From Bacteroidota bacterium (GTDB lineage: Bacteria; Bacteroidota; Ignavibacteria; UBA10030), in the NCBI GenBank assembly GCA_021813905.1, contig JAKAJH010000006.1, forward strand, positions 21,953 to 85,952: DNA of 64,000 nt, read 5' to 3'. The notes under the pieces were generated by a model. The model saw nothing but the letters and a program-made list of their open reading frames with translations. It did not search any database and was not told the origin of the DNA. Positions 91 through 61,111 of this stretch are shown one piece after another. The position numbers were made by a program, and so were the translations under genes. Every line of letters starts with the position of its first letter. Position 1 is the first letter of the stretch.

Positions 91-116
91 TTGACTGTCA
101 ATTGTCAATTGACATC
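91..116 (-). repeat. 7-bp period tandem array (AATTGAC)2 plus degenerate unit
   Basis: Minus strand gtc AATTGAC AATTGAC AGTCAAG, about 10 nt after the hpnD stop codon. Confidence 0.75.
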
Positions 117-8687: not shown

Positions 8688-10016
8688 TCAGGAACGGCGT
8701 TTCTTCCACCACCGCGCCAGCCGGTCGCGGAAATCCTTCTCACGCCCCTGGTCGGTGGGATGATAATAGAGCTTCGTACGAAGATTGTCCGGAAGGTACT
8801 GCTGCTCGGTGAAATGACCGTCGAAGTCGTGACTGTACTTGTAATCCGCGCCGTAGCCGAGTTCGTCCATCAGTTTCGTCGGAGCGTTACGCAGATGAAG
8901 AGGAACCGGAAGATTCGGAAGCGACCGCACATCGCTCCACGCGTCCTCGATCGCCCGATAAGCGGCGTTGCTCTTGGAGGCGGAAGCGAGATAGACAGCG
9001 GTCTGCGCCAGCACGATGCGCGCTTCCGGCATGCCGATGTAATCGACGGCTGTGAAGCACGATGTCGCCAGTGTGAGGCCGTACGGATCCGCGTTGCCGA
9101 TGTCCTCAGCCGCGAGGACGATCATTCGTCGCGCGATGAATTTCGGGTCCTCTCCGCCGTCGAGCATGCGCGCCATCCAGTACACCGCCGCATCGGGATC
9201 GCTGCCGCGGATGCTCTTGATGAACGCGGAAATGATGTCATAGTGCTGTTCCCCCTCCTTGTCATAGAGCGTGAACTTGCGCTGGAACGCCTCTTCGGTC
9301 TTCTTCTTCGTGATGATCACGGATCCGTCCGGTGCGGGTTTCGTGAGTCGGACGGCGTTCTCGAGGCCGTTCAGCAGTTTGCGGGCGTCGCCGCCGGAGA
9401 GGAGCATGAGAAATTCACGGTCCTCGATCGTGATCCGGCGTTGCGAGAGCATGGAGTCCTTCGTGAGCGCAGCAGTGATGAGCGCGTCCAGCGCGTCCCG
9501 GTCGAGCGGCTCGAGGATGTAGACCTGACAGCGGGAAAGCAGGGGGGCGATGACCTCGAACGACGGATTCTCGGTCGTCGCGCCGATGAGCGTGACGATG
9601 CCTTCCTCCACCGAATGCAGCAGCGCGTCCTGTTGCGCCTTGTTGAACCGGTGGATCTCATCGATGAAGAGCACCGTGCGCCGGCGCAGGGCCCGGAGGT
9701 TCTTCTCGGCCGTCGTGATCACCTCGCGCACGTCCTTGACGCCGGAGGAGACCGCGTTCAGCTGAAAGTATTCCGCCTGGATATGGCGCGCAACCAGACG
9801 GGCCAGCGTCGTCTTGCCGACGCCGGGAGGTCCCCACAGGATCATTGAGCTCAGGTCGCCCTGTTCCAGCATCAGCCGAAGCGGCTTTCCCTCGCCGATC
9901 AGATGATCCTGACCGAGGAATTCTTCCAGCGTGGCCGGACGCATCCGCTCCGCCAGCGGTGCATTCGCCGCCAGCGGTTTCTTCTGGAACTGTTCCCGTG
10001 GAAAGAGTTCAGACAT
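8688..10016 (-). CDS. rarA: Replication-associated recombination protein A (MgsA/RarA AAA ATPase)
   Basis: ILWGPPGVGKTTLA Walker A; LFIDEIHRFNKAQQD; GATTENPSFEV. Confidence 0.95.
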   Translation of the reverse strand: MSELFPREQFQKKPLAANAPLAERMRPATLEEFLGQDHLIGEGKPLRLMLEQGDLSSMILWGPPGVGKTTLARLVARHIQAEYFQLNAVSSGVKDVREVITTAEKNLRALRRRTVLFIDEIHRFNKAQQDALLHSVEEGIVTLIGATTENPSFEVIAPLLSRCQVYILEPLDRDALDALITAALTKDSMLSQRRITIEDREFLMLLSGGDARKLLNGLENAVRLTKPAPDGSVIITKKKTEEAFQRKFTLYDKEGEQHYDIISAFIKSIRGSDPDAAVYWMARMLDGGEDPKFIARRMIVLAAEDIGNADPYGLTLATSCFTAVDYIGMPEARIVLAQTAVYLASASKSNAAYRAIEDAWSDVRSLPNLPVPLHLRNAPTKLMDELGYGADYKYSHDFDGHFTEQQYLPDNLRTKLYYHPTDQGREKDFRDRLARWWKKRRS

Positions 10017-10046: not shown

Positions 10047-10094
10047 ACTCACTCACCCACCCACGTACGCTCGTACTCTCGTACCCTCGTTCCC
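10047..10094 (-). repeat. Degenerate 8-bp period tandem array (6 units)
   Basis: + strand: actcactc acccaccc acgtacgc tcgtactc tcgtaccc tcgttccc; begins 2 nt after the ftsB-like stop codon. Confidence 0.8.
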
Positions 10095-10095
10095 T

Positions 10096-10479
10096 TCACT
10101 CCTGCTCTTTCTTGATCTTGTACACCGTCTCCCCCTCCCGGATCATGCCGTACTTCTCGCGGGCGATCTTCTCGACGGTCTTCTTGTCCCCCTGCAGGGC
10201 GTTGATCTGCGCCTGCAGTGCGCGAATCTGAACGCTGTCGGCGCGAACCTGCTCGATGAGCGCCTGGCGTTCACGCTCGAGCCGGATCCGGGCAAGTATC
10301 CCTTTGTTGTCGAAGAAGAAGTAGAGAAAGACGAGAGTCCCGACGGCAATGAGGAGTGCGCGCCGTTTGTTGCGGGAGGCAGCGCGACCGATCTGTTTCA
10401 AAAACCGTCGCGGCTGAAGATTTCGGTAGAATCGGTCTTCCATCGCATCCAACGTAACGGAAAAATGGCGGGAGTGCAA
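10096..10479 (-). CDS. Septum formation initiator family (FtsB/DivIC-like)
   Basis: One TM helix followed by coiled coil ERERQALIEQVRADSVQIRALQAQINALQGDKKTVEKIAREKYGMIREGE. Confidence 0.82.
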   Translation of the reverse strand: MHSRHFSVTLDAMEDRFYRNLQPRRFLKQIGRAASRNKRRALLIAVGTLVFLYFFFDNKGILARIRLERERQALIEQVRADSVQIRALQAQINALQGDKKTVEKIAREKYGMIREGETVYKIKKEQE

Positions 10480-13097: not shown

Positions 13098-14984
13098 TCA
13101 GCGCTTCCGCTGCTCCGGCTGAAGCAACCCGGCGCCTTCGAGGATGCGCGGAACGATATCGTACTTGTGGAAGGGGGGCATGAGGTATGCGCCGGCGACC
13201 AGGCCTTTGATCTTCTCCAAAAAATCCACCGTGATCTCGATGCCGACCGCAGCCGCGGACGATCCGGCGTTCCGGAGCTGTTCGCGAATGCGCCCGGGAA
13301 TGCGCATGCCCGGGACCTCGTTGTGCAGGAATTCCGCATGCTTCGCGGAGCGCAGCGGCAGCAGTCCGACCATCAGCGGCACGCGCAGCGGCTCGATGCG
13401 GCGGAGAACTTCCTCCAGCGTGCGCAGCTCGTAGATCGGCTGCGTGTAGACGATGTGCGCCCCGGCGGCGACTTTCTTCTCGAGCTTCGCGATCTCGCCA
13501 TCCATGTTCGATGCCGTGGCGTTCAGCGCGCAGGCGATGCAGAATGCGGTCCGTTGCCCGATCGCATTGCCGAGCAGATCGCGGCCCTGATTCATCGCGG
13601 CGGCGGCCCGGATCAGTCCCACCGAATCCACATCGAACACGGATGTCGCCTGCGGATAATCACCGACCTTCGTCGGATCGCCGGTGACGAGAAGGATGTT
13701 CCGGATGCCGAGCGCGTGTGCGCCGAGCAGCTCCGCCTGCAGTCCGATCAGATTCCGGTCGCGCGTCGCGAGGTGCATCATCGCCTCAATGCCGCTGTGT
13801 CGCTGCACCAGGTGGGAAAGCGCGATCGGGCTCATGCGCAGGCGGGCGCGGGCACCGTCCGTGATGTTGACGGCGTCGATGTCGAACTTCTTCAGATACT
13901 GCGCGCCGTCCACGACGGTCGACATGTCCAGCCCGCGCGGGACATCCAGTTCAACGCTTGTCAGAAACTTCTTGCCGATGTTCCGCGCGAAGACGGACAA
14001 CTCGGCAGGGTGCTCCGGCGCGGTCGGCTCCGCGATCTCAATGATCGCCGGTGAGGGCACTTCCCGCTCTCGGCGGTCCGCGGCCGGTTCCGCCTCCGGA
14101 CGAGTGCCGGCCTGACGGTTGAATTCATCCAGGACGAGTCTCATCGCGCGGGTATGGGCAGGCGTGGATCCGCAGCAGGCACCGATAAGCGTGACGCCGG
14201 CCTGCAGCAGTTCGCCGGCATACTTGCTCAGGTACTCCGGCGTCGCGTGATAGATGGACCGTCCGTCAAGCAGCGTCGGGATGCCGGCCGCCGGCTGGGC
14301 GGAGAGCACCACGCCGTCCTTGTACATGCCGCGAATGATGCTGAACATCCGCTGCGGGCCGACGGTGCAGTTGGCGCCGACCACGTCCACCCCCTTGCCG
14401 ATCAGGTGCTCCACGACTTCGAGGGGGAAGCTGCCGGACAGAATGGTCCCGTCCTCGGGGAATGTCTTTTGTGCGACGATCGGGATCGACGTCAGTTCCT
14501 TTGCCGCGGCGATCGCTTCGTCCAGTTCCTGCAGGCTCACGAAGGTCTCGAGGATCAGCAGGTCGACGCCCGCGCTAACGAGTACGCGGATCTGTTCCCG
14601 GAACACCTCGCGTGCATCGGCATGTCGCAACTTGCCGACGGGCTCCAGCAGTTTTCCCGTCGGTCCCACGGCCCCGGCGACGTACGCCGCGTCTCCGGCC
14701 GCACGGCGGGCGATCTCCACGCCGGCACGGTTGATGGCTTCGACCTGGTCCTCGAGGTGAAATTCCGAAAGTCGGATGCGGTTGGCGGAGAAGGTGTTGG
14801 TCTCGATGATCTCCGCACCGGCCTCGATGTATTCCCGGTGAACGCGCTCGACGATGTCGGGATTCTTCAGGTTCTGCAGCTCATGCGGCGGTTCGGAGTA
14901 CTCGTACAGATCGAGCATCGTCCCCATCGCGCCGTCGCAAAGGATGGGACCCTGGGTCAGTCGTTGTCGGAAGTCGGGGTGCAT
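13098..14984 (-). CDS. Bifunctional homocysteine S-methyltransferase/methylenetetrahydrofolate reductase
   Basis: N-terminal DGAMGTMLD...ETNTFSANRIRL...GACCGSTPAHTRA; C-terminal MetF domain (LLVTGDPTKVGDYPQATSVFDVDS). Confidence 0.92.
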   Translation of the reverse strand: MHPDFRQRLTQGPILCDGAMGTMLDLYEYSEPPHELQNLKNPDIVERVHREYIEAGAEIIETNTFSANRIRLSEFHLEDQVEAINRAGVEIARRAAGDAAYVAGAVGPTGKLLEPVGKLRHADAREVFREQIRVLVSAGVDLLILETFVSLQELDEAIAAAKELTSIPIVAQKTFPEDGTILSGSFPLEVVEHLIGKGVDVVGANCTVGPQRMFSIIRGMYKDGVVLSAQPAAGIPTLLDGRSIYHATPEYLSKYAGELLQAGVTLIGACCGSTPAHTRAMRLVLDEFNRQAGTRPEAEPAADRREREVPSPAIIEIAEPTAPEHPAELSVFARNIGKKFLTSVELDVPRGLDMSTVVDGAQYLKKFDIDAVNITDGARARLRMSPIALSHLVQRHSGIEAMMHLATRDRNLIGLQAELLGAHALGIRNILLVTGDPTKVGDYPQATSVFDVDSVGLIRAAAAMNQGRDLLGNAIGQRTAFCIACALNATASNMDGEIAKLEKKVAAGAHIVYTQPIYELRTLEEVLRRIEPLRVPLMVGLLPLRSAKHAEFLHNEVPGMRIPGRIREQLRNAGSSAAAVGIEITVDFLEKIKGLVAGAYLMPPFHKYDIVPRILEGAGLLQPEQRKR

Positions 14985-14987
14985 GGT

Positions 14988-15320
14988 CTAGCGGGACGCG
15001 GTGGTGTCGTGCCGGAACACAGTGACGGAGTCGAGCCACGTGCGGGAGCCCTGGACATTCAGGATCGCCGCCAGTGAATCGCCGATGCGCAGCGTGGAGA
15101 TCACAGAACTGTCTTTGAGTTCGAACGCCATCGTCATGGCGTCCATGAATCCCGGCACCGCGCCGTGCGACAGCGTTACGCGGGCGGGGGAGAGATCGAT
15201 CCGCACCACTTCGCCGCGGATCGGAAAGGTGGACGGGGGCTGCGGCGCGTTCTTGGCGCAGGAAGCAATGCCCGTCGCGAGAAGCGCCACGGCCAACGTG
15301 AGAGTGCGGGACATGGTCAT
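14988..15320 (-). CDS. CusF-like copper-binding lipoprotein
   Basis: Lipobox-like TGIASC; HGAVPGFMDAMTMAFEL Met-rich CusF-type motif. Confidence 0.7.
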   Translation of the reverse strand: MTMSRTLTLAVALLATGIASCAKNAPQPPSTFPIRGEVVRIDLSPARVTLSHGAVPGFMDAMTMAFELKDSSVISTLRIGDSLAAILNVQGSRTWLDSVTVFRHDTTASR

Positions 15321-16585
15321 GCCAGATCCTCGAACGTCTCGCGCGGACGGATCAATCGCACCCGGTCGCCGTTGACGAGCACTTCCGCCGGTCGGGGACG
15401 TCCGTTATACTGCGATGCGAGCGCGAAGCCGTACGCGCCGGCGGTCAGCACTGCGAGAATGTCATTCGGCTTGACCTTCGGCATGACGCGATCGCGGGCA
15501 AAAAAATCTCCCGTCTCGCAGACGGGGCCGACGATATCCATCGGCAGGTGCTCATAGGTGTCAAGCACCGCCGGAACGATCTGATGATACGCCTGGTACA
15601 GGCTGGGGCGGATGAGATCGGTCATTGCGGCATCGACGATGGCGAACTTCTTCTCGCGATTCTCCTTCAGATACAGGACGCGGGTCAGCAGTGTACCCGC
15701 TTCGGCCACCAGTGCGCGGCCCGGTTCCACCCAGATCGTGCAGCCCGTGGACTGCAGGATGGGAAGGATCGAACGGAGCACATCCGCCGGATCTGTCATC
15801 GATTCCGCCGTGCCGTTCTCTTCCGGCAGCATCTCATGCCGGATGGCGTTGCGGTACGGCACCCCGATGCCGCCGCCGAAGTCGATGTGCGACAGATGAA
15901 TGCCCGCGTCGCGCAGTTGTCCCACGAGTTGCGCCACGAACTGGGCTGTGGCCGTGAACGGCTCCACCTTGGTGATCTGCGAGCCGATGTGCGTGTGGAT
16001 GCCGGTCACCTGAAGGCCCGGCAAACCCGCGGCAAAGCGGTACACCTCGAGCGCTTTGGAGGATTCGATCCCGAACTTGTTCGAGTGGAGTCCGGTCGTG
16101 ATGTACGGATGGCTTTCGGCGTCGATGTCGGGATTGATGCGAAGCGAGATGCGCGTGGAAGTGTTAAGCCGCAGCGCGATGCGGGAGATGGTCTGCAGCT
16201 CGCCCGTCGATTCGGCATTGAAAGCGAAGATTTTCTGCTGGAGCGCGTACTCGATCTCGTCTTCGCGCTTCCCTACGCCGGCAAAGACGATCCGCTCGGG
16301 CGGGAAGCCGGCCTTGAGCGCCTGGTGCAGTTCCCCGGCGGAGACGACATCCGCGCCGGCGCCTTCGTCGGCGAACAGCCGGAGGATCGTCGGATTGGCG
16401 TTGGCTTTGACGGCGTAGCAGACCAGATGCGGTTGCTCACCGAACGCGCCGTTGAGGCTCCGGTACCGGGTGAGGATGTCGTTCTTGCTGTAGACGTAGA
16501 GCGGCGTACCGTATTCCTCGGCCAGCTCCCGAACGGGTACATCCTCGCAGCACAGATCCTGGTCTTTGTAGGCGGTGTGGGTCAT
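15317..16585 (-). CDS. lysA: Diaminopimelate decarboxylase
   Basis: PLYVYSKNDI, YAVKANANPTILR, HIGSQI, DFGGGIGVPY, PVCETGDFFARDR; start MTHTAYKDQD at 16585. Confidence 0.93.
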   Translation of the reverse strand: MTHTAYKDQDLCCEDVPVRELAEEYGTPLYVYSKNDILTRYRSLNGAFGEQPHLVCYAVKANANPTILRLFADEGAGADVVSAGELHQALKAGFPPERIVFAGVGKREDEIEYALQQKIFAFNAESTGELQTISRIALRLNTSTRISLRINPDIDAESHPYITTGLHSNKFGIESSKALEVYRFAAGLPGLQVTGIHTHIGSQITKVEPFTATAQFVAQLVGQLRDAGIHLSHIDFGGGIGVPYRNAIRHEMLPEENGTAESMTDPADVLRSILPILQSTGCTIWVEPGRALVAEAGTLLTRVLYLKENREKKFAIVDAAMTDLIRPSLYQAYHQIVPAVLDTYEHLPMDIVGPVCETGDFFARDRVMPKVKPNDILAVLTAGAYGFALASQYNGRPRPAEVLVNGDRVRLIRPRETFEDLA

Positions 16586-48905: not shown

Positions 48906-50018
48906 ATGGAACCATCCTCCTCACAACGCTCCTCCGGTCCGCGGCTGCGTGATGTGCTCCGCGACGATCTTCACCAGGGTGACTATCTCTCCACGCTTCG
49001 CCGGGACCTGAAGGATATCGAGGCGTACTATCTGAGCGATGCCCAGAAAGAGCGTCTCGCTGCGTTGGGCAAACGGCACCGCGTCAAGCGATGGATCTGG
49101 ACGGCTTGGTGGGTGCTCAAGGAGATGGTCGTTCGGCTCTCGCCCGTCCGGCGTCTGCTGGTGGTAGCGGCCGTCGTGCTGATCTTCCTGTCGGAGTCGG
49201 ACTCAAGCGGCGGCGGAGCTGACGGTCGGGTGATCCTTGCGCTCCTCATTCTGCTGTTCGTGATTATTCTGGAGGTGAAGGACAAGCTGCTGATGCGCGA
49301 CGAGCTGGAAGCCGGACGGAAGGTGCAGCGTGCGCTGATGCCCGAAGCGACGCCCGCGGTGTACGGGTGGGATGTATGGCTGTCGTCGCGTCCCGCGAAC
49401 GAGGTCGGAGGAGATCTGGTCGACATCCTGCGCATCAGTCAGGATCGCGTGGCCGTTTCCATCGCCGATATCGCGGGAAAGGGTCTGCAGGCGGCGCTGC
49501 TGATGGTTAAGCTGCAGGCGAGCATCCGCGCCCTGGCGTCCGAAGATACGTCGATCAGCGACCTGGTGGCGCACATCAATGAGATCTTCCGCCGCGACAG
49601 CCCCGTGTCGATGTTCGCCTCGCTGCTGACCCTGGAGGTCCGTCCCGGATCGGGCGGACTCCGGTTTGTCAACGCCGGGCATCTGCCGCCGTACCATTTG
49701 AAGGAAAGCGGGATCGACGAACTGGCAAAGGGTGAACCGGCGCTCGGTCTGGCGAAAGGGACGCACTACACGGAGCATGTGCTCGAACTGCAACCCGGCG
49801 AAGTCTTTGTGGCGATTTCGGACGGCGTCGTTGAAGCGCGTCGGGAGAACGGCGAATTCTACGGCGCGGAGCGGTTCAGGCAGCTTCTGACGTCGCTCCG
49901 CCGGTTGAGCGCTCAGCAGATGGCGCAGGAAATCATCGGCGAGATCGATCGCTTCGTCGGCAGCACGGCGTCGGGCGACGATCTGTCATTGGTGATTTTG
50001 AAGAGGGTGGAATCATGA
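48906..50018 (+). CDS. PP2C-type SpoIIE/RsbU family phosphatase
   Basis: ELEAGRKVQRALMPEATP, SRPANEVGGDLVDIL, IADIAGKGLQAALLM, SDGVVEARRENGEFYG. Confidence 0.92.
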   Translation: MEPSSSQRSSGPRLRDVLRDDLHQGDYLSTLRRDLKDIEAYYLSDAQKERLAALGKRHRVKRWIWTAWWVLKEMVVRLSPVRRLLVVAAVVLIFLSESDSSGGGADGRVILALLILLFVIILEVKDKLLMRDELEAGRKVQRALMPEATPAVYGWDVWLSSRPANEVGGDLVDILRISQDRVAVSIADIAGKGLQAALLMVKLQASIRALASEDTSISDLVAHINEIFRRDSPVSMFASLLTLEVRPGSGGLRFVNAGHLPPYHLKESGIDELAKGEPALGLAKGTHYTEHVLELQPGEVFVAISDGVVEARRENGEFYGAERFRQLLTSLRRLSAQQMAQEIIGEIDRFVGSTASGDDLSLVILKRVES

Positions 50019-50029
50019 GAAGTTAAAAT

Positions 50030-50058
50030 GAAAAGGGAAAAGGGAAAGAAGGAAGGGC
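50030..50058 (+). repeat. Degenerate 7-bp period purine array (AAAAGGG-like)
   Basis: gaaaaggg aaaaggg aaagaagg aaggg starting about 12 nt after the SpoIIE-like stop codon. Confidence 0.6.
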
Positions 50059-50137: not shown

Positions 50138-50185
50138 ACGTTCCCACGTACACACATACCCGCGTGCTTTCGTACCCTCACCCAC
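50138..50185 (-). repeat. Degenerate 8-bp period tandem array (6 units)
   Basis: + strand: acgttccc acgtacac acataccc gcgtgctt tcgtaccc tcacccac; ends 6 nt from the stop codon of minus ORF 50192..50302. Confidence 0.75.
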
Positions 50186-50191
50186 CCACAG

Positions 50192-50302
50192 TTACACCTG
50201 CCCCGTCTTAGCCGGTTTTTCTCCCCGCACGCGTGACCGGATCAGAAACACCACGACGCCTGCCGCGATCACTCCGGTGCCAGCGACGATCCGCAAAACC
50301 AT
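50192..50302 (-). other. Possible 36-aa membrane ORF MVLRIVAGTGVIAAGVVVFLIRSRVRGEKPAKTGQV
   Basis: Minus-strand reading of the junction with the IS256 relic; one TM helix with positive C-terminal flank. Confidence 0.4.
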
Positions 50303-50498
50303 CTATGCCGCCAATGCCATCGAGAGTCTCAATGGTCGGGTGCGCAAAGCTGTGCTGGTGCGCGGACACTTTCCCAACGGCCGAACAGCCGGGAAGCTCC
50401 TTCGGTTCGTCTTGCCCAACGCATCCCAAAAATGGAATCCGCCGATCTGCTGGCGAGAAGCCAAGACTCATCTCACGATCATGTTCAAAGAACGACTC
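50289..50498 (+). pseudogene. IS256-family (Mutator-type) transposase C-terminal relic
   Basis: IRKTIYAANAIESLNGRVRKAVLVRGHFPNGRTAGKLLRFVLPNASQKWNPPICWREAKTHLTIMFKERL matches the conserved C-terminal block NAIESLN..RK...RG.FP. Confidence 0.85.
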
Positions 50499-50807
50499 GT
50501 CGGACTCAACCAAGCTACCATGCGCTCACGCACAATATATCTGATCGCCCCGTCACAGTCACGACCGAGGCGTCGCAAGTTCTTTGAGATCGAGTCGTTA
50601 GCGCGTTTTGTGCCTGCCCGCCATTCCGACTCCGCCGGCGGTATGAGCCGAACCGCCAAATGCTTCCGCCTCCTCACAGGCTCCTCGACCATACGATCGA
50701 TCAGAACCGATTGAACCTGTCGCCTCGTTCATCGGGCAGCGGTGATCGTCAATTGCCTGTTTCCCCAGTTCCATCTTCCCCCATTTTTCTCTATACTCCC
50801 CTTCACT

Positions 50808-51830
50808 ATGGAACCCTCTTCGACCGTCTTCGTCACCGGATCCACCGGATTCATCGGCACAAAACTCGTCAATGAGCTTGTTCGCCAGGGACATTCCGTC
50901 CGGGCGCTCACGCGGGCCGCGAGCAACCGCTCGGGACTCGAGCACGAGCGCATTACCTTCGTCCAGGGAGACATCATGGACAAGGCGTCGCTGGTGCGGG
51001 GCATGGAAGGCTGCCGGCATGTCTTCCACCTGGCCGCCTACGCCAAGAACTGGGCGAAAGACCGTACGATCTTCTTCGACCAGAATATCCAGGGGATGCG
51101 GAACGTCTTCGAGGCCGCGAAGCAGAACAGCGTGGAGCGCCTCGTCCTGACGTCCACGATCGTCACCTTCGGACCGACGCGCCCCGGCGCCGTGGGGGAT
51201 GAGACGATGCCCCGCATCACGCCGAAGTATTATACCGAATACGAAGAGAGCAAAGCCATCGCCGAGCAGGAGGCTATGCGCCGCGCGGCCGACGGATTCC
51301 CCGTCGTCATCGTCAACCCCACCCGCGTCTATGGTCCCGGAAAACTCACCGAGGGCAACTCCGTGAGCCTGATGATCGATCAGTACGACCGGGGCAAGGT
51401 GCCGGTGCTGCTCAACGGCGGCGTGAATGTCGGCAACTACGTGCTCGTGGACGACCTGGTGCAGGGACACATCCTGGCAATGCACAAGGGGCGGATCGGC
51501 GAGCGCTACATCATCGGCGGCGAGAACATTTCGCTGAAAGGATTCTACCGGCTGGTGGACGAGGTGAGCAGGAAGAAGCATTTCCAGATGTCGCTCCCGC
51601 CGGGACTGGCGATGACGTACAGCGGCGTGCTGAAGTTCGTCGCCGATACGTTCGGCATCTATCCGCAAATCACGCCGGGCTGGGTCGAAACGTTCCTGCA
51701 GGACTGGGCCTACACGTGCGCCAAGGCGGAGCAGGAGCTGGGCTACCGGATCACGCCGCTGAAGGATGGCGTCCGGATGACGTACGAGTGGATCCTCGCA
51801 GAACGCACACGAGCGAAGAGGAAGGGATGA
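50808..51830 (+). CDS. NAD-dependent epimerase/dehydratase (SDR)
   Basis: VFVTGSTGFIGTKLVNEL; HVFHLAAYAKNW; YxxxK in YTEYEESKAIAE; start 50808. Confidence 0.92.
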   Translation: MEPSSTVFVTGSTGFIGTKLVNELVRQGHSVRALTRAASNRSGLEHERITFVQGDIMDKASLVRGMEGCRHVFHLAAYAKNWAKDRTIFFDQNIQGMRNVFEAAKQNSVERLVLTSTIVTFGPTRPGAVGDETMPRITPKYYTEYEESKAIAEQEAMRRAADGFPVVIVNPTRVYGPGKLTEGNSVSLMIDQYDRGKVPVLLNGGVNVGNYVLVDDLVQGHILAMHKGRIGERYIIGGENISLKGFYRLVDEVSRKKHFQMSLPPGLAMTYSGVLKFVADTFGIYPQITPGWVETFLQDWAYTCAKAEQELGYRITPLKDGVRMTYEWILAERTRAKRKG

Positions 51831-52543
51831 ACCGACTCAGCACGGGCATGTTCTCCGGACTTCTGTCCGGTCCTCAGCGCAAGGCGACGCTCATTCTGCT
51901 CTGGGCGCCGGTGGTCATGATCGTGTGGAAGTACTACGGCACGCGGCCGTTCTATCTGACGCATCTCGCGTCGACGTTCGGCTCCGGCGATCCCGCGCAG
52001 GCGGCGGAGCTGTACACGTTCGGCTCGGCGTTCCTGCTTCTCGGCGTCGTGTCGCTGCTGGCCATCCGATTCATCTTCAAAGAGCCGCTCGCGAATTACG
52101 GCATCGGGCTGGGGGACTGGAAGTTCACGCTGAAGGCGATCCTGGTGGTGGCGCCGGTCTTCGCGCTGCTGTCGTTCCCGTCGTCGAAGGATCCGCAGTT
52201 CCTCGCCGAATATCCGATCTTCAAGGGCGCCGCGGTGTCCGCGGGAGCGTTCGCGTGGCATGCGCTGGCGTATCTCTTCTTTTATGCGGGATGGGAGATC
52301 TTCTTCCGCGGGTTCATGCAGTTCGGTTTGCGGGACGCCCTGGGAGACTGGAACGCGATCTTTGTCCAGACGGCGCTCTCGTGCGTCATCCACATCGGCA
52401 AGCCGGACGGGGAGATCTTCAGCTCCATCCTCGGCGGACTGCTGTGGGGCATTCTGGCCTTCCGCAGCCGCTCGCTCATTTCCACCATCGCCACGCACTG
52501 GGTGCTGGGGGTCTCACTGGATCTGTATATCTGTTTCTTCTGA
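51827..52543 (+). CDS. CPBP family intramembrane metalloprotease-like protein
   Basis: Multi-TM; WEIFFRGFMQFGLRDALGDWNAIFVQTALSCVIHIGKPDGEIFSSILGGLLWGILAFRS. Confidence 0.8.
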   Translation: MNRLSTGMFSGLLSGPQRKATLILLWAPVVMIVWKYYGTRPFYLTHLASTFGSGDPAQAAELYTFGSAFLLLGVVSLLAIRFIFKEPLANYGIGLGDWKFTLKAILVVAPVFALLSFPSSKDPQFLAEYPIFKGAAVSAGAFAWHALAYLFFYAGWEIFFRGFMQFGLRDALGDWNAIFVQTALSCVIHIGKPDGEIFSSILGGLLWGILAFRSRSLISTIATHWVLGVSLDLYICFF

Positions 52544-52556
52544 GGGACTGTGGGGA

Positions 52557-52584
52557 ATTGACAATTGGCAATGGGCAATTAACT
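52557..52584 (+). repeat. 7-bp period tandem array AATTGAC AATTGGC AATGGGC AATTAAC
   Basis: Four direct heptads starting about 13 nt after the CPBP stop codon. Confidence 0.85.
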
Positions 52585-58657: not shown

Positions 58658-58697
58658 TGTTCCTTGCGTACGCTCGTACCCACGTACGCTCATGTTT
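58658..58697 (-). repeat. Degenerate 8-bp period tandem array (about 5 units)
   Basis: + strand: tgttcctt gcgtacgc tcgtaccc acgtacgc tcatgttt; ends 4 nt from the S9 peptidase stop codon. Confidence 0.75.
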
Positions 58698-58700
58698 TCC

Positions 58701-60770
58701 CTAGTTCCCCACCCTGGCTTCACGCACCATCTTCATCACATCGTACGGCGCCGGATCTCCGCCCAGATATTTGTGGAACCAGTCGAGATGCGCATCATAA
58801 TAGAGCGGCATGGATTTGACGTTGTTGGGCCAGTGCCCGTCGTTGGGGAACACAATCAGGCGCGACGGCACGTTCATCACCTGGAGATCGGAGAAGAACT
58901 CGAGGCTTTGCGTGTAGGGCACCCGGTAGTCACGTTCGCCCGTGATGACAAGGCACGGGGTCCTGAAGTTCTTCACGTACTGATTCGGGGACCACTTCAG
59001 ATACAGGTCGCTTTCCCACGGCAAACCGTTGAGATCCCATTCGGGGAACCACAGTTCTTCCGTCGCACCGTGCATGGCGGTCAGATCATACACGCCCATC
59101 ATCGCGGCGATCGCCTTGAAGCGCGCCGTGTGTCCTTCCAGCCACATCATCATGTAGCCGCCGAAGCTCCATCCCATCGCGCCCATCCGGTCGGCATCGA
59201 CGTAAGGCAGATGCGAGAGCGAATCCGCCACCGCCATCACGTCCTCATACACTTTCCCGCCCCAGTCCTTTGAAATGGCCGCGGTGTACGACTGTCCGTA
59301 GCCGGTGGAACCGTGCGGATTGGGGAACGCCACAATGTATCCGGAACCGGGATACACCTGCCAGTCGCCGCGGAACGCATCTTCCCACTGCGACTGCGGC
59401 CCGCCGTGCACGTTGAGGATCAGCGGATACTTCTTGTTGGGATCGAAATTGTGCGGCTTGACAAGGAACGTGTGTACCTTCACGCCTGTCGGCGAGGTGA
59501 TCCAGAGCTCTTCCGCCGGACGGATGTCAACCGCGTCTTCCACCGGCTTGTTGAACGTCGTCAGCCGCACCGGATTCGCCGCGCCGTTCTTGCCCAGCGT
59601 CGCGCGCCAGATCTCGACCGGATCCGCAATGCCGCGTCGCGTGTACACGAGCGTCTTTCCGTCGGGCGAAATGTCGAACGCGTCGATGGTTTTCACGTCG
59701 AGCACCGGCGTGATCTTCTTCGACGCGATGTCAACGCGGTACATCGGCACATGGCCTTTCACGTCGGCCGTGAAGTAGATCGATCGCGAGTCGGGAGCCC
59801 AGGCGAACGCATCGATCCAGTTGTCGAACTGCCCTTCGGTGAGGATGATCCGCTCGCCGGAGGAGCGGTCCATGATCGCGAGCCGCTTCAGATCGGACTC
59901 GTAGCCCGGTGTCAGCTGCACAATGTAGGCGATGTACTTGCGGTCGGGTGAGTACGCCGGCTGATCGTCGCAGGCGGTGTTGTTCCTGGTGATGTCGGTT
60001 GCGGTTCCCCCATCCACCGGGACGGTGAAGAGATCCTTGTTCGTCGAGCGTGCTTCCACCGCGTCATGATTCGAAACGAAGCAGACCTGCTTGCCATCCG
60101 GCGCGAACACGGCCTGTGCTTCGCCGAATCCCGGCGCATCATGATCGCCGGAGGTCAGGTCCGTGACGCTGTTCTTCGCCAGATCGTAGTAGAACGTGTG
60201 CGTACGTTTTCCGTCCGACCAGGCGGTCCAGTGCCGGTAGAGCAATCCGTCCGCGAGGTGCGCCTGTACCGGGCCGCTGTCGTGCAGCTCGTCCCGCTCT
60301 TTGTTCAGCGCGTCATCCGCGCCGAACTCCGGGTACACGTCACTTGCGAAGAGAAATCCGTCCCCGTTCGGCGCAACGACCAGATTGCCGACGCCGGTCG
60401 AGATGTGCGTGACCTGCTCGGCCTCGCCGCCGTCGATCGGGAGACGCCATACCTGCGGACCGTCCTTTCGGGTGGAGATGAAGAGGATGGATTTGCCGTC
60501 GGGCATCCATGCCGGCGAGTAGTCGGCGGCCGGGCTGGTGGTCAGCTTTCGCAGGTCGGAGCCGTCGAGGTTCATGACATAGACATCGGCGTTCGTCTTC
60601 CCCTGCTCCAGAAAGCTTTCCGTCACCGAAAAGACGATCATCCTGCCGTTGGGGGAGATCTGCGGGCCTGCCACAGCTTTGATCTTGTAGAGATCGGCGA
60701 CGGTGAACGGCTTCTTCTGCGCCATTCCCAGCGCCGAAACGCACAGCAGCAACGCGAGTACGCGCTTCAT
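58701..60770 (-). CDS. S9 family peptidase (acylaminoacyl-peptidase/prolyl oligopeptidase-like)
   Basis: TolB-like propeller; GAMGWSFGGYMMMW nucleophile elbow; VITGERDYRVPYTQSLEFF; start MKRVLALL at 60770. Confidence 0.95.
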   Translation of the reverse strand: MKRVLALLLCVSALGMAQKKPFTVADLYKIKAVAGPQISPNGRMIVFSVTESFLEQGKTNADVYVMNLDGSDLRKLTTSPAADYSPAWMPDGKSILFISTRKDGPQVWRLPIDGGEAEQVTHISTGVGNLVVAPNGDGFLFASDVYPEFGADDALNKERDELHDSGPVQAHLADGLLYRHWTAWSDGKRTHTFYYDLAKNSVTDLTSGDHDAPGFGEAQAVFAPDGKQVCFVSNHDAVEARSTNKDLFTVPVDGGTATDITRNNTACDDQPAYSPDRKYIAYIVQLTPGYESDLKRLAIMDRSSGERIILTEGQFDNWIDAFAWAPDSRSIYFTADVKGHVPMYRVDIASKKITPVLDVKTIDAFDISPDGKTLVYTRRGIADPVEIWRATLGKNGAANPVRLTTFNKPVEDAVDIRPAEELWITSPTGVKVHTFLVKPHNFDPNKKYPLILNVHGGPQSQWEDAFRGDWQVYPGSGYIVAFPNPHGSTGYGQSYTAAISKDWGGKVYEDVMAVADSLSHLPYVDADRMGAMGWSFGGYMMMWLEGHTARFKAIAAMMGVYDLTAMHGATEELWFPEWDLNGLPWESDLYLKWSPNQYVKNFRTPCLVITGERDYRVPYTQSLEFFSDLQVMNVPSRLIVFPNDGHWPNNVKSMPLYYDAHLDWFHKYLGGDPAPYDVMKMVREARVGN

Positions 60771-60845: not shown

Positions 60846-60893
60846 GCGGTGAAGCGGTGGGACGGTTCGACGGTGCGTCGGTGAGTGCGTGTG
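60846..60893 (-). repeat. Degenerate 8-bp period tandem array (6 units, CGGT-anchored)
   Basis: + strand: gcggtgaa gcggtggg acggttcg acggtgcg tcggtgag tgcgtgtg; ends 12 nt from the DUF1858 gene stop codon. Confidence 0.8.
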
Positions 60894-60904: not shown

Positions 60905-61111
60905 TCAGGGGGCGTTGGAGAGAGCGTTAAGATCGTTGACGAACGCAGCGATCTGGGCGTCCTCGAATCCCTTCTCGCGCGCGGCGCTTTCCAGCGTACC
61001 CCAGATCGGCTCACCGCAGGCAAGACATTTGATGCCGTGATCCATCAGGTAGGCGACGGAGCCGGGAACGTCGCGGACGAGATCTTCGATCTGCACGTCT
61101 TTTGTCACCAT
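60905..61111 (-). CDS. DUF1858 domain-containing protein
   Basis: MVTKDVQIEDLVRDVPGSVAYLMDHGIKCLACGEPIWGTLESAAREKGF. Confidence 0.88.
   Translation of the reverse strand: MVTKDVQIEDLVRDVPGSVAYLMDHGIKCLACGEPIWGTLESAAREKGFEDAQIAAFVNDLNALSNAP

Follow-up and report, generated by a model that had tools for sequence, protein, structure and literature searches.

Degenerate octad and heptad arrays past stop codons in an Ignavibacteria genome, probably built by replication slippage

The ftsB-rarA array and its counterparts in the window

The window analyzed here is a stretch of 64,000 nucleotides from contig 49 in a genome of 3.08 Mb and 90 contigs. At 10047-10094 it contains six consecutive octads, and direct reading matched the letters quoted in the original prediction, including its statement that the octads share one phase and lie 2 nt past the stop of an ftsB-like gene. 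The minus strand reads ...GAGTGA AG GGAACGAG GGTACGAG AGTACGAG CGTACGTG GGTGGGTG AGTGAGT..., with 2 nt between the array and the upstream TGA (10098-10096), where a DivIC/FtsB-family gene stops, and 30 nt from the array's end to the start (10016) of a co-directional rarA/MgsA-family gene. The DivIC/FtsB-family ORF may extend to 10479, and the nearest relatives of the RarA-family protein (74-79% identity) belong to Ignavibacteriae/Ignavibacteria or 'Bacteroidetes' MAGs, which places the organism, as an uncultured member, in that lineage. Tandem Repeats Finder assigned a period of 8 to the array core, and BLAST with the array found eight further sites in the genome that resemble it, with the likeness confined to the array. 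The features of the window are as follows, with the genes beside the other arrays assigned by Pfam:

91..116, minus strand: heptad array (TGTCAAT), 4 nt past the stop of a squalene/phytoene synthase-family gene (121-1005)
8688..10016, minus strand: rarA/mgsA-family AAA+ ATPase gene, downstream of the type array (Pfam PF12002, E 4.2e-72)
10047..10094, minus strand: type octad array, GTACGNGN units grading into GTGGGTGN/GTGAGTGN (direct reading, Tandem Repeats Finder, BLAST)
10096..10443, minus strand: DivIC/FtsB-family septum formation gene, upstream of the type array (Pfam PF04977, E 3.8e-17)
50030..50058, plus strand: heptad array (GAAAAGG), 11 nt past the stop of a SpoIIE-domain gene (48954-50018)
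50138..50185, minus strand: octad array of the type array's family, beside the end (50192) of a short ORF (direct reading)
52557..52584, plus strand: heptad array (AATTGGC), 13 nt past the stop of an Rce1-like gene (51827-52543)
58658..58697, minus strand: octad array GAGCGTACGTGGGTACGAGCGTACG, 3 nt past the stop of an S9 peptidase gene (58701-60770)
60846..60893, minus strand: degenerate octad array, 11 nt from a stop at 60905

All of these arrays had been claimed to begin about 2-13 nt from a stop codon, and five of the six further places, all of which were read directly, do adjoin a called stop. The minus-strand array at 50138-50185 is a weaker case, because its stop belongs to a short ORF (50192-50302, minus strand) with a low score of 17. 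In the array at 60846-60893 the G-rich strand is the plus strand, reading toward the ORF that has its stop at 60905. By eye, a transposase-like fragment (AIESLNGRVRKAV) is visible at 50302-50600 and apparently truncates the small ORF whose end bears the array at 50138-50185.

Period and placement across the genome

A sample of 1.70 Mb of the 3.08 Mb genome, taken in stretches, was scanned for tandem self-matches. A home-made caller based on hexamers gave 1510 genes (91% coding), and the 843 intergenic regions were scored against dinucleotide shuffles. The strict count yielded 28 arrays at lag 8 and 13 at lag 7, where the shuffles had 0.2 and 0.0. Multiples of the octad were likewise enriched, with 17 against 0.3 at lag 16 and 11 against 0.3 at lag 24, and no clear excess over the shuffles was seen at lags other than 7, 8 and multiples in these regions. 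The excess of tandem 5-11 bp units over a composition-preserving null that marks long simple sequence repeats (SSRs) is thus present at lags 7 and 8. The arrays are confined largely to the space between genes, where 22 lag-8 arrays were found in 138 kb, compared with 2 in 1546 kb of coding sequence, a density about 120 times that inside genes. Arrays inside genes favor lags 6, 9 and 12, as predicted by frame constraint.

Placement was assessed on a set of 50 non-overlapping arrays, obtained with a looser mismatch penalty than the strict count. A stop is no more than 15 nt away from 26 of the 50, where random placement among intergenic regions would give 4.8, and no more than 50 nt away from 34 (12.8 expected). 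Starts attract no excess, with 4 of the 50 arrays within 15 nt (5.2 expected). Convergent regions are enriched (14 arrays vs. 6.0 expected) and divergent regions depleted (5 vs. 10.4). When placement was randomized within each array's own region, 15 arrays were at most 5 nt from a stop, compared with 6.3 expected. Because this abutment exceeds the own-region null even in convergent regions alone (7 arrays vs. 4.2, p 0.027), promoter avoidance cannot be the full explanation. Lag matches, as a possible sign of array extension into the ORF, amount to 34% in ORF tails and 26% in the control, a difference that is partly an effect of composition.

Stop-proximal degenerate arrays of 8- or 7-base units are therefore real and far above chance. 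The comparison by which the original prediction could have failed, that of 7/8-bp periodicity after stops with other intergenic sites, showed a clear enrichment of arrays, and the 1.70 Mb scan bears out its proposal of a genome-wide family with this period at stop codons.

Unit structure and turnover in relatives

Two octad families dominate, namely GTACGNGN, often passing into GTGGGTGN and GTGAGTGN, and GGGAATYG with its relatives; the heptad arrays comprise many different units. In the GTACG arrays, positions 1-5 are conserved at 88-99%, a figure inflated by the search seed, and position 8 at only 48%. The claim that part of each unit is constant while the rest varies holds at this family level, in part by construction of the seed, and only modestly for single arrays, as phase conservation was uneven at p<0.05 in 7 of 39. 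Adjacent units are most alike and likeness drops with distance, from 0.72 to 0.39 in heptads, with the caveat that array detection by lag matching inflates the similarity of adjacent units. Octads show a second similarity peak at four units (0.671 vs. 0.601 in order-shuffles, 0 of 500 as high), probably driven by two long arrays of contig C45, and repeated unit pairs number 12 vs. 5.9. The four-unit peak has the mark of higher-order duplication. The higher likeness of neighboring than of distant units fits local duplication; selection for a consensus binding site would not leave that pattern.

The two long arrays of contig C45 (genome G000) are at 13511-13779 and 15212-15510 and comprise 33 and 37 octads. 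They are mostly of the GGGAATYG family, have the same orientation and flank a single ORF (13780-14940, minus strand), in which a Fic-like HPFTNGNGR motif was recognized by eye.

The two-unit pattern GTACGNGNGTACGNG has 34 matches in its own genome, compared with 1 for a reversed-pattern control, and 0 to 2 in each of 60 genomes of relatives; it had no match in the sole same-genus genome, which is 55% complete. Among 297 genomes searched, the three-unit GTACGNGN pattern occurs in its own genome only and is absent from the 296 others of the phylum. At the orthologous ftsB-rarA spacers, relatives bear heptads with other units directly past the ftsB stop, for example TRANNAG in L069 and GAYTACN in L077. 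Pooling of these spacers from 13 relatives gave z scores of 7.7 at lag 7, 5.8 at lag 14 and 3.6 at lag 21, and no signal at lag 8. Position and period thus persist at this spacer while the unit sequence turns over. In the same-genus genome, which is about 70% identical and fragmentary, nothing matched the ftsB-rarA region; a single orthologous spacer was found within the genus, and its sequence is different.

In 246 intergenic regions of such relatives, 18 lag-7 arrays were found vs. 0.6 expected, adjoining both stops and starts as placed by a crude gene caller. Only two lag-7 arrays turned up in 275 kb sampled at family level from 20 genomes, likewise with a crude gene caller, which indicates that heptad density differs between species.

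Origin of the arrays and their known relatives

According to our analysis, the arrays are fairly likely to be intergenic SSRs, or short minisatellites, whose units of 7 or 8 bp are duplicated locally and survive mainly past stop codons, and they were probably made by replication slippage rather than representing a new regulatory element. We posit that local duplication of one to several units, most likely by replication slippage or unequal exchange, would create and renew the arrays, which would have no function tied to their sequence. They would persist mainly in the stretch past the stop codon, because an insertion or deletion of 7 or 8 bp there shifts no frame and spares promoter and ribosome-binding site. 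Slippage-driven evolution had rightly been named among the candidates. The decay of unit similarity with distance, the convergent enrichment, the divergent depletion, the confinement between genes, the unit turnover at the ftsB-rarA spacer and the restriction of the excess to lags 7, 8 and multiples speak for it. The slippage reading leaves the period of 8 and the close stop contact in convergent regions unaccounted for, and local slippage alone does not put one GTACGNGN unit at about 20 loci.

Alternatively, the arrays may be a functional mRNA 3' element, whose unit would bind a protein or shape RNA 3' ends or stability past the stop, a reading that we regard as doubtful. It would suit the strong stop proximity, the conserved GTACG core with its variable remainder, and the orientation of the arrays. 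In 15 of 20 intergenic GTACG arrays (binomial p 0.021), and in 9 of the 10 within 15 nt of an ORF end (p 0.011), the G-rich strand points away from the closest end of an ORF. However, some arrays are nearer to starts, with the G-rich strand non-coding there, and the unit differs among species and even among loci of one genome, its likeness decaying with distance instead of keeping one consensus. The earlier suggestion of a role in 3'-end formation found no support. Intrinsic-terminator-like sites were present at 0 of 33 array-bearing stops and at 43 of 607 other stops (p 0.16), and neither a promoter nor a terminator was predicted on the type array. An intrinsic terminator or structured RNA was rejected for the type array, which has no stable hairpin with a T run, no unusual RNA fold (z -0.99) and no match to an Rfam family. 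The idea that a 7/8 period serves to provide stops in all frames was likewise dropped for the GTACGNGN unit, as its common form GTACGAGG has no sense-strand stop by eye.

A lineage-wide process that builds arrays of period 7 (here 8) at ORF ends, with outward polarity and independently of the unit, appears improbable to us. It could consist, for example, of transcription-coupled slippage or template switching where ribosomes leave the mRNA, and the polymerase-set step would then have shifted from 7 to 8 in the present species.

We consider it similarly improbable that a short dispersed sequence, mobile or copied, akin to small dispersed repeats or the product of ectopic gene conversion, distributed the GTACGNGN array over the genome and that slippage varies only its copy number. 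Such dispersal would fit the recurrence of this unit, in one species, at about 20 separate places between genes, the absence of its three-unit form from the 296 other genomes of the phylum, and the similarly composite arrays of several loci, in which GTACGNGN is followed by GTGGGTGN. It is at odds with the flanks, since the likeness between loci ends at the array edges and octad-bearing regions with arrays masked were found to have no flanks in common. The single unit GTACGAG is not clearly enriched outside arrays (23 vs. 16.8), which together with the missing common flanks makes a larger mobile element unlikely. A MITE or REP-like element was rejected on the grounds of these flanks, and GTACGAG singletons were rejected as array seeds. 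A phage origin was dismissed, as the 15 viral-contig matches are unrelated simple or palindromic repeats, and so was a plasmid origin, with no plasmid match.

A general basis in regulatory repeats that form G-quadruplexes, an idea put forward for the Xanthomonas GGGAATC heptads (PMC4692102), is highly improbable: GGGAATYG octads do resemble GGGAATC plus one base, and a G3 motif occurs in 6 of 23 octad arrays (2.0 in shuffles), but it occurs in 0 of 27 heptad arrays, most arrays have no motif, and the type array has neither a G3 nor a G2 motif.

The slippage reading places the arrays close to repeats of other bacteria. The original prediction knew of no named element that joins this position and unit structure, a view contradicted by the degenerate heptamer arrays GGGANTN (GGGAATC) of Xanthomonas and the similar GGGGA(T/C)T of Nostoc (Rehm et al., 2015, PMC4692102). 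These are mostly located 0-50 bp past the stop on the coding strand, sometimes overlapping the stop, and copies upstream of a gene occupy the non-coding strand close to the start (PMC4692102). Our arrays share with them this dual placement and the short, G-rich, degenerate tandem units in 2 to 26 copies, dispersed between genes; 34 of the 50 arrays are no farther than 50 nt from a stop and 15 of 20 GTACG arrays are oriented outward, in agreement with the coding-strand placement. They differ in that the main family has period 8, with the unit GTACGNGN, and in that most arrays are without a quadruplex motif. The 7-bp period of the published heptads is not that of the type array and the GTACGNGN family, and a separate heptad set exists in the genome. 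The choice of heptameric repeats as the nearest analogue was sound, as the match in placement and degeneracy attests.

The best reading of the arrays is as an 8-bp counterpart, specific to this species, of the heptamers known from intergenic DNA of Xanthomonas and cyanobacteria; what is new is the octad period and the GTACGNGN unit. The STRR of cyanobacteria are tandem, intergenic heptanucleotide repeats with many different units; they share period and unit diversity with the heptads described here and differ in their near-perfect copies, and a period of 8 is not typical of them. Mrazek-type surveys of long SSRs reportedly counted near-perfect repeats, whereas the present arrays are degenerate and were measured for their position relative to stops. 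As relayed by later papers, such prokaryotic SSRs have units of 5-11 nt, heptanucleotides being the most abundant, and slippage at a polymerase-sized step was the proposed cause (Mrazek et al., 2007, cited in PMC4679880 and PMC4692102); to the extent of these accounts, intergenic tandem units of 7-8 bp are common to both. The TAACTGA repeats present in Beggiatoaceae, Cyanobacteria and some Bacteroidetes (PMC4679880) are also intergenic direct repeats of heptads; they differ in having a single fixed unit and in lying directly upstream of start codons. A library search for work on intergenic tandem repeats of Ignavibacteria found no paper.

The excess of heptamers in bacterial intergenic DNA has, by secondary accounts, been noted since 2007. 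One spacer keeps period 7 across many related species despite sequence turnover, and one species has moved to 8. This contrast makes the cause of the period accessible to comparison. To our knowledge, the polymerase-step explanation of the heptamer excess has hardly ever been tested. The arrays are also a warning that stop-proximal repeats need not be regulatory.

Further arrays were noted in passing. In L038 (8397-8467), CTCGTACC and GTCGTACT octads alternate three times and form a 16-bp higher-order unit, and on the other strand the TGA stop of the neighboring ORF lies inside the GTGGGTGAGTGGG part. The same-genus genome carries a 130-bp heptad array with TCTTGNN units (L210, 1932-2062).
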